The translations under genes were made by a program, and so were the position numbers. From an uncultured Dehalococcoidia bacterium (GTDB taxonomy: Bacteria > Chloroflexota > Dehalococcoidia > Lucifugimonadales > UBA3495), in assembly GCA_951812535.1 (NCBI GenBank), contig CATOSK010000006.1, positions 186,001 through 250,000 on the forward strand: 64,000 nt of DNA, written 5' to 3'. Below, in pieces: positions 30,635 to 34,222 of this stretch (positions within the stretch are counted from its first letter, which is position 1; every line of letters begins with the position of its first letter). Under the pieces are notes generated by a model. The model ran no database searches. It worked only from the letters and a program-made list of their open reading frames with translations, and had not been told where the DNA came from.

Positions 30635-31060
30635 ATGGCCCAACAGCAGCTGCCGGAACTGGTTTACAACAACCTGCAGATCGGCGAGGAACTCGGCTCT
30701 TACGAGTACGTCCTGACCCAGGAAATGGTCGATGAATACCGCAAGTCGGTGGACGACCCCGAGGGCGTGTTCCCGACCATCGCCGTCAAGCACGACGCCA
30801 CCGCCCTGGGAATGGCCTACGAGGACAACACCGGCGGAGTCAACGCCGGCAACGAGATCGAGCTCCACAATCCCCCCATCCCCGGCAAGGTCATCCGCGT
30901 CACCGGACGCATCCACGACAAGTACACCCGGCGCGACAAGCCTTACCTGGTCATCGAGGCCACCGCCACCGACGAGGACGGCCGGCTCATCGAGAAGATG
31001 CGGACCTACCAGATGAAAAAACCCGACGAGGTGGGAAAGAAATGGCATCCACAGGGCTAG
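30635..31060 (+). CDS. MaoC-like hot-dog domain protein
   Basis: 141 aa; FPTIAVKHDATALGMAYEDN...GNEIELHNPPIPGKVIRVTGRI. Confidence 0.7.
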   Translation: MAQQQLPELVYNNLQIGEELGSYEYVLTQEMVDEYRKSVDDPEGVFPTIAVKHDATALGMAYEDNTGGVNAGNEIELHNPPIPGKVIRVTGRIHDKYTRRDKPYLVIEATATDEDGRLIEKMRTYQMKKPDEVGKKWHPQG

Positions 31061-31461
31061 AAGACAAGACCATCACCGAGCTCACCAAGACCATCACCCA
31101 GGTCAAGATCAACCAGTTCGAGTCTTGCGGCATCCGGGACCGCGAAAACATCCACAACAGTCCCGAGCTTGCCAAGCGCCGGCTGGGCACCACCTACCCC
31201 ATCGCCTCGGGGCGCATGTCCATTGCCTTCGCGTCCCAGCTGCTGCGGGAGTACTTCGGCGGCGACGTTTTCCACCACAGCGGCGTGGTCAACCTGAAGT
31301 TCCTCCGCCCGGTTAAGGAAGGCGACACTCTTACCGTCAGCGGCGCCTACAACAGCAGCCAGGACACCGATGACGGCACCCTCGTCATCGTAGACGTATC
31401 CTGCCGCAACCAGAACGGCGACATGACCGCCGTCGGCCAGGGCAGCGCCGTCGTCAAATAG
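31042..31461 (+). CDS. MaoC-like hot-dog domain protein (second subunit)
   Basis: 139 aa; overlaps preceding ORF; YPIASGRMSIAFASQLLREYFGGDVFHHSGVVNLKFLRPVKEGDTLTVSG. Confidence 0.75.
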   Translation: MASTGLEDKTITELTKTITQVKINQFESCGIRDRENIHNSPELAKRRLGTTYPIASGRMSIAFASQLLREYFGGDVFHHSGVVNLKFLRPVKEGDTLTVSGAYNSSQDTDDGTLVIVDVSCRNQNGDMTAVGQGSAVVK

Positions 31462-31547
31462 CCCCCGCAACGCCACCGCGGTATTTTCCAGCGGGAGGCA
31501 TCATGCAGCGCACGGAAACCGGGAAAGTCATCCCGCTGAGGAGTATC

Positions 31548-31850
31548 ATGCCCGGAGCAGAGTTCGGAAAAGTCGAAGTCGATATCGTCTACTGCGTACC
31601 TTGAGGGTACCACGCAGTCGCCATGTGGCTGGCGACAGAGATCTGGCGCTCCCAGGAATCGGGAGACGTCGCCATCAAGCTCACCCCCGCCGGGGGCGGC
31701 AGGCTCGAGGTTAATCTCGACGGCGAGAAGATCTTCGACGTCAAGGAAGAGGGCGGGGTGCACCCCAACCTCTCCAAGGCCAACGAGCTCAAGATGGTCA
31801 TCGCCGACAAGGTCTTCGAAGTCGAAGAGGCCATCGCCGCCGGCAACTAG
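31548..31850 (+). CDS. SelW/SelT/Rdx-family selenoprotein; UGA at 31602-31604 read as Sec
   Basis: GAGGAG RBS then MPGAEFGKVEVDIVYCVP(U)GYHAVAMWLATEIWRSQESGDVAIKLTPAGGGRLEVNLDGEKIFDVKEEGGVHPNLSKANELKMVIADKVFEVEEAIAAGN; CxxU motif at the position of the Rdx redox motif; 7-bp stem GTCGCCA/TGGCGAC with loop TGTGGC 12 nt after the UGA. Confidence 0.85.
31617..31636 (+). promoter_or_regulatory. bacterial SECIS-like stem-loop
   Basis: GTCGCCA-TGTGGC-TGGCGAC; apical loop starts 19 nt after UGA and has G in its first two bases, consistent with the published bacterial SECIS pattern. Confidence 0.6.
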
Positions 31851-31974
31851 CCGCCCGGTCCGGCGCACCGCAACGCCGTTTCATATCAGCAGCCCGGGCC
31901 GCCGCGTCTGGGCTGTATATTTTTGGCAACTCTGGACCGCTCCCCACAGCGGTCTGCACCTGGAGCTGGAACCT

Positions 31975-32675
31975 TGGCTAATCCTGAACACCTGAAGCTG
32001 GTCCAACAGGGACCCGAAGCCTTTGCCCTTTGGCGCAAGGAAAACCTGACCGCCGAGCTGGACCTCGAAGGCGCTGACCTGTCCGGCATCAACCTGGCGG
32101 GCGCGCGCATCCGCAACGCCAACCTGCGGGGAGCCAATCTCGCCCAGGCCCGCCTCTTCCGCGCCAGCCTGGCCAAGGCCAACCTGGAGGACGCCGATCT
32201 CACCGGCGCTGACCTCGGCCGCGCCAGCCTCGCCGACACCAACTGCCGGGGGGCCAATTTCACCAACGTTAACCTATACTGGGCCGACTTCCGGGGTGCC
32301 AGGCTCGAGGGAGCGGTGTTCCGCCACTCCCGGGCCATGCGCACATCCTTCTTCAACGCCGACCTGGCCGGAATCGACGCCAGCCAGGCTACCATGATCG
32401 AGGTCGACCTCCGCAACACCAACTGCACCGGCGCCAACTTCTCCTCCGCCAACATGAACGGCGCCGACATCAGCCGCGCCGTCCTCGAAGGCGCCGACTT
32501 CACCAAGGCCATGATCCGGGACTCCATGTGGATCATGACCGACATGCGCCACGCCAACTTCGACATGGCCAGCCTTCACCGCTCCGACCTCAGCATGGCC
32601 AAGTACGACAGCACCACCCGCTTCCCCGACAACTTCGATCCCCTCAACACCGGCCCCAAGGACGCCGTCGACTAG
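31975..32675 (+). CDS. pentapeptide repeat protein
   Basis: Repeated A(D/N)LXX units: LEGADLSGINLAGARIRNANLRGANLAQARLFRASLAKANLEDADLTGADLGRASL. Confidence 0.9.
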
Positions 32676-33903
32676 TAGTGAGTCAAAACAGAGATGTCAG
32701 GTATGGCGATAGCAGGAGGGAGGTGGTAGCGTTATAAGGGAAGCGGCGTAAGTGTAGTGGGAGGTGTGGGGTTCATGGTGCAGAAGAAGTATGAGGTTAG
32801 GCTCTCGCCGGAGGAGAGGAAGCATCTGCGGAAGGTGGTCCGGTCGGGACGGAGTTCGGCCCAGGCAATCACCCGGGCCCGCATTCTGCTGAAGGTGGAC
32901 GAGGGCTGGACGGCCGCTCAGGTGGCAACGGCCCTGGACATCTCGGAGCGGACGGTAATACGAGCCAGGAAGCGGTACGCGCAGGAGGGGTTGGAGGAGA
33001 CGTTGCATCGGCGCAACCAGGTGAACCGGTACCGGAAGCTGGACGAACGTGGGGAAGCTCATCTCATTGCTTTGGCCTGCAGCCCAGCCCCAGAGGGCCA
33101 CGACCACTGGACCCTGCGGCTGCTGGCGGGGAAGACGGTGGAACTGGGATTGGTGGAATCCCTGTCCCACGAGACGGTGCGGCTGCACCTGAAAAAAACG
33201 AACTCAAGCCGTGGCGGAAGCAGCAGTGGTGCATACCTGCGGTGAGCGCCGACTTCGTGGCCCACATGGAGGACGTGCTGGATCTGTACGCCGAACCCTA
33301 CGACCCAGCCAGGCCGGTGGTCTGCTTCGACGAGAGTTCCACTCAGTTGCTGGCTGAGACCAAGGAGCCCCTGCCAGCAGGGCCTGGGCGTCCCAGGCGC
33401 CAGGACTACGAGTACGTGAGGGGCGGTACTCGCAACCTGTTCCTCGCCTGTGAACCCAAGGCGGGCTGGCGCCACGTGGCTATCACCCAGCGGCGTACCA
33501 TGCAGGACTTCGCTCACCGGATGCGCTGGCTGGTGGACCAGGCCTACCCCGACGTCCCAGTGGTCCGAGTGATTCTGGACAATTTGAACACGCATCGGAC
33601 GGCGTCGCTGTATGAGACCTTCCCGCCAGCGGAGGCTCGGCGCATCGCCCAGCGGTTGGAGTTCCACCACACACCCAAGCACGGGAGTTGGCTCAATATG
33701 GCGGAGATGGAGTTCAGCGTCCTGGCCCGGGCCTGCCTGCGGGGACGCAACGGCGACGAGGACAGCCTGGGGAAAGCCGTGAACGCCAACGTGTCGGAGC
33801 GCAACGCCGCGGCGGCCCCCATTAACTGGCGATTTACCACCAGGGAGGCCAGAACCAAACTCCGCAGATTATATCCTGACACTACTGCTTTGACTGAACA
33901 CTA
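32676..33903 (+). mobile_element. IS630-family element, two-ORF transposase (32757..33245, 33242..33904)
   Basis: N-terminal winged helix RARILLKVDEGWTAAQVATALDISERTVIRARKRYAQEGLEETLHRR; DDE part VVCFDESSTQLLAE...VRVILDNLNTHRTASLYE...HHTPKHGSWLNMAEMEFSVLAR; ends TAGTG...CACTA with TA target; frames join at an A7 run (CTGAAAAAAACG). Confidence 0.92.
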
Positions 33904-34222
33904 GGCCGCATCGTCAGAATGGCAAGATAATGGCAGATTTCTGGGTAGCGGGTGATTGTGTGGGGCTGGGACATGGCAGCAGCGCACCGGCGTCACGAGA
34001 TTTCGGACCAGGTTTGGGAACGATTGCGGACCGCACCCAGGCTCCTTCATTGCTTGCTGATATCGATTGCTGATGTCGCAACCGAATATCCGCTGGCGGA
34101 CCGAGGCCGCGACGCCGGTGCCATAGTGGCTGAAGCCCAGGCTCGGGGGATGGAGCCAGTGATACCACCGAGAAGCCACCGCGCGGTGGCCACTGTCATG
34201 GTTAGCTGGTCATATGCGGTGC
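33904..34222 (+). repeat. internally deleted IS5-family derivative
   Basis: MAAAHRRHEISDQVWERLRTA (start of IS5 transposase, cf. MKAAHRRHDMSDAVWERLRPH at 19367) is followed directly by LADRGRDAGAIVAEAQARGMEPVIPPRSHR (downstream part); middle missing. Confidence 0.6.

Follow-up and report, generated by a model that had tools for sequence, protein, structure and literature searches.

The window, by which we mean the whole 64-kb stretch of DNA analysed here, belongs to a draft genome of a Dehalococcoidia/SAR202-type Chloroflexota (3.59 Mb in 14 contigs, 96.6% complete). The locus of interest comprises the following features:

30635-31060, plus strand: first half of a MaoC-type hydratase/dehydratase (FAS1_DH_region, below the Pfam cut-off; a neighbour in 22 of 29 family loci)
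31042-31461, plus strand: MaoC-like dehydratase gene overlapping the previous MaoC-type gene (PF01575, E 6.5e-10)
31538-31543, plus strand: GAGGAG, likely ribosome-binding site for the ATG at 31548 (sequence read directly)
31548-31850, plus strand: gene for a SelW-like selenoprotein of the Rdx family, 100 aa including one Sec (frame reading, profiles and AlphaFold2 model)
31602-31604, plus strand: UGA codon, predicted to be read as selenocysteine (U19 of CVPU; UGA in the family orthologues, Cys in genomes lacking selA)
31617-31636, plus strand: bacterial SECIS hairpin with a 7-bp stem and the 6-nt loop UGUGGC, whose second base is G (conservation and compensatory changes)
31923-32675, plus strand: pentapeptide-repeat protein gene, downstream neighbour of the selenoprotein gene (PF00805, E 6.8e-51; adjoins the Rdx gene at all 29 family loci)

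The frame that opens at ATG 31548 is closed by the TAG at 31848-31850 and is interrupted once, by an in-frame UGA at 31602-31604, and direct reading of the sequence bore out the frame, coordinates and UGA given for it in the first-pass annotation of this DNA. The GAGGAG motif ends 4 nt upstream of the ATG. The product is MPGAEFGKVEVDIVYCVPUGYHAVAMWLATEIWRSQESGDVAIKLTPAGGGRLEVNLDGEKIFDVKEEGGVHPNLSKANELKMVIADKVFEVEEAIAAGN, in which Sec takes the second redox position of a C-V-P-U motif. Ordinary gene finders miss this gene because one of its codons resembles a stop. UGA-interrupted frames with a nearby Cys were sought throughout the 64-kb window; 32 candidates were obtained and, among the 30 that were inspected, only the SelW-like gene was protein-like on both sides of the UGA. 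An Rfam scan of the same window returned a tRNA as its sole match.

The SelW-like protein matches the Pfam Rdx profile PF10262 over residues 10-71, a segment that spans the UGA (E 1.1e-12; 48.4 bits for a cut-off of 22.6 bits), and the NCBIfam profile TIGR02174 (CXXU_selWTH; 37.8 bits for a cut-off of 34.2 bits), and it thus lies above the curated cut-offs of both the Rdx and the SelT/SelW/SelH families. In an alignment of 25 sequences, C16 and C/U19 were invariant and several members carried TGC or TGT at residue 19. With the Rdx profile extending across the UGA and Cys in homologues, the proposal that this codon occupies the Sec/Cys site of CxxU/C in an Rdx protein is upheld. An AlphaFold2 model computed from an alignment made in this analysis (pLDDT 87, pTM 0.78) has a beta-alpha-beta-beta-beta-alpha topology and places the CxxC/CxxU motif after the first strand (strand 9-16, helix 22-35). 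When compared with the bacterial SelW-related structures 2obk, 2fa8 and 2p0g and with mouse SelW (2npb), the model gave a probability of 1.00, TM-scores of about 0.65-0.71 on the query and rmsd values of 1.5-2.7, and a sequence search recovered the same bacterial SelW-related structures as the fold comparison. The predicted fold, common to these four structures, is the thioredoxin-like SelW fold. Solved bacterial members of the Rdx/TIGR02174 family are ~30-36% identical to the SelW-like protein, and the best-matching two, 2obk and 2fa8, have Cys where it has Sec.

The gene had been described as following a MaoC-MaoC pair, and profile searches indeed place such a pair at 30635-31060 and 31042-31461. 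The two MaoC genes, the SelW-like gene and the pentapeptide-repeat gene occur together in 22 of the 29 family loci; three loci without the full cluster reach the end of the contig or of the sequence examined a short way upstream, and at four (genera g3 and g4) no MaoC pair was found beside the SelW-like gene. The pairing of the SelW-like and pentapeptide-repeat genes holds in all 29 loci (pentapeptide genes at 31923-32675 in the window and in relatives L009-L044). The cluster was not seen in the ~800-base flanks of more distant members of the order. As judged from gene order, it offers a lead to the possible function of the SelW-like protein. At 32757-33904 the window also carries an IS630-type transposase in two overlapping frames, one with the HTH part and one with the DDE_3 part, and an A7C run near 33190, just ahead of the frame change, is a candidate programmed frameshift.

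The hairpin GTCGCCA(TGTGGC)TGGCGAC starts 12 nt past the UGA. For this single sequence, resampling of synonymous codons at local usage, with the protein held constant, gave P 0.08 for 7 pairs and P 0.06 for the energy; as neither is significant, family conservation was used instead. In the 24 distinct family sequences the pairing is significant: standard pairs fill 153 of the 168 cells, compared with 147.0 +/- 1.1 after synonymous codons were shuffled between sequences, and none of 5000 shuffles reached 153, under a null that ignores relatedness. The three inner G-C pairs are invariant across the family. The third pair (31619/31634) takes five standard types (C-G, U-G, A-U, U-A and G-C) through changes at the third position of V/L and A codons, and these changes are direct compensatory evidence for the hairpin. 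In most family sequences the loop is UGUGGC, CGUGGC or CGUGGU, with G second, which agrees with the description of bacterial SECIS elements as having a small apical loop containing G (PMC1088965). The first-pass annotation had read the hairpin as a bacterial SECIS; its sequence, 7-bp stem and 12-nt spacing stand. The structure is not exceptional when judged from the single sequence alone, and it is the conservation in the family that makes it convincing.

Relative to the orthologues, codon changes after the UGA are, like those before it, mostly third-position or synonymous; between the window and relative L018, the part after the UGA gives pS 0.77 and pN 0.13. On these comparisons, purifying selection acts on the codons downstream of the UGA, in the same frame. 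This constraint bears on a reading in which the UGA stops translation in part, so that selenium would switch the product between an 18-residue peptide and the full protein, and the role would be regulatory as well as catalytic. Such a switch would fit the position of the gene within a conserved cluster and the generally incomplete readthrough of UGA/SECIS in bacteria, but the downstream codons are under ordinary protein-level constraint and nothing speaks specifically in its favour, so that we regard it as unlikely.

The prediction that the host encodes selA, selB, selC and selD was confirmed by a search of the same genome, in which the full Sec machinery is present: SelA (E 2.8e-168), SelB (E 5e-106, over its full length), SelD (E 1.9e-118) and a tRNA-Sec (67.4 bits on RF01852; called tRNA-SeC with anticodon TCA (UCA) by ARAGORN). 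SelD (L055, G000:C2:81782-82699) is itself a selenoprotein with an in-frame UGA in HCAGUAAK, at a position that we take to correspond to Cys17, the catalytic residue of the E. coli enzyme. A SelA match over the family cut-off occurs in 172 of the 197 genomes of the order. Selenocysteine decoding is largely retained in this order. Stop-free Rdx genes with Cys at the site were found in six genomes without full SelA (G028, G041, G054, G058, G168 and G176). Eight genomes without SelA over the cut-off carry the UGA form; these are drafts, 70-91% complete, several with close relatives that have SelA, and one of them (G080) has a partial SelA match. Among the matches listed, genomes with SelA had UGA in 109 cases and a stop-free best match in 5. 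The Cys form is associated with SelA absence (Fisher p 2e-4, kinship ignored, from a table compiled by hand from the listed rows and taking in, for SelA-lacking genomes, those whose Rdx form was looked at). If a suppressor tRNA or a reassigned code instead made the UGA a codon for a standard amino acid such as Trp, the open frame through it would appear identical; however, stop-free homologues have Cys at the site and never Trp, and the tRNA with a UCA anticodon is tRNA-Sec, accompanied by the SelA/SelB/SelD set. This reading is highly improbable.

The UGA is kept at the same codon in relatives from public Dehalococcoidia, Chloroflexota and SAR202 assemblies. An Rdx match was obtained in 157 of the 197 genomes sampled from the order, and nearly all of the matches listed hold one UGA, at the same site. 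The UGA at 31602-31604 is common to all family orthologues in independent assemblies, and it aligns with the Cys of homologues. The possibility that the UGA arose in a Cys-type Rdx gene by a recent nonsense mutation or a sequencing error, which would take a single base change (TGC/TGT to TGA) in an order where Cys forms of the family exist, was rejected since the UGA is conserved over many genera, with coding constraint persisting past it and the full Sec machinery in the genome, and can be given practically no weight. Neither of the two refuting outcomes named in the first-pass annotation was borne out: the Sec machinery is complete, and the homologues rule out both a sequencing error and a recent, lineage-specific nonsense mutation.

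Combined, the gene, the machinery and the conservation of UGA and hairpin, with the fold taken from a predicted model, make it almost certain that 31548-31850 is a genuine SelW-like selenoprotein gene of the Rdx family in which UGA is read as Sec. We infer the actual insertion of Sec, the redox chemistry and a partner of the protein along the following lines. SelA would make Sec-tRNA(Sec) using selenophosphate from SelD, and the hairpin at 31617-31636 would recruit SelB with GTP and Sec-tRNA(Sec), so that the ribosome reads the UGA at 31602-31604 as Sec. Cys16 and Sec19 would sit where the first strand of the thioredoxin-like fold ends, and the most likely role of the protein is that of a small selenol/thiol oxidoreductase, forming and resolving a Cys-Sec bond.

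The SelW-like family, to which the present gene belongs, is already known from ocean DNA and ranks with the most abundant selenoproteins of marine bacteria. The Sargasso Sea survey (PMC1088965) describes SelW-like selenoproteins as bacterial, and they form the most numerous selenoprotein family in the GOS data, with 427 sequences (PMC2398784). As here, the proteins of both surveys (PMC1088965, PMC2398784) are of Rdx type with CxxU, and their SECIS follows closely on the UGA and has a small apical loop containing G; however, they come from environmental reads without assigned organisms, whereas the present gene lies in a genome with the machinery and in a conserved neighbourhood. As CxxU SelW-like proteins have long been known in bacteria, the gene joins a known family, and what is new is a modest lead from the neighbourhood. 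The locus provides organismal and genomic context for a selenoprotein family that ranks with the most abundant in marine bacteria, and it sets right the annotation of a gene which standard ORF calling loses or shortens throughout an order of Chloroflexota that are mostly uncultured. In the literature searched, papers mentioning both selenocysteine and Dehalococcoidia exist, and no paper joining a selenoprotein with SAR202 was found. Tentatively, and with the odds rather against it, the SelW-like selenoprotein of this Chloroflexota family may form a conserved module with the pentapeptide-repeat protein, usually together with the MaoC-type dehydratase pair; if so, the module would be the first genetic lead to a partner or substrate of a bacterial SelW-like protein.

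Further Rdx genes were encountered in the material. The same genome carries a second SelW-like UGA gene, 45% identical (L059:2184-2465; G000:C6:571683-571949), in which QHLATATWMA follows the UGA and the hairpin is a variant one; no relatives of the MaoC or pentapeptide-repeat genes were found beside it. In another genome (L063:801-1386; G107:C1), two Rdx genes stand side by side in tandem, the first with UGA (Sec) and the second with TGC (Cys).
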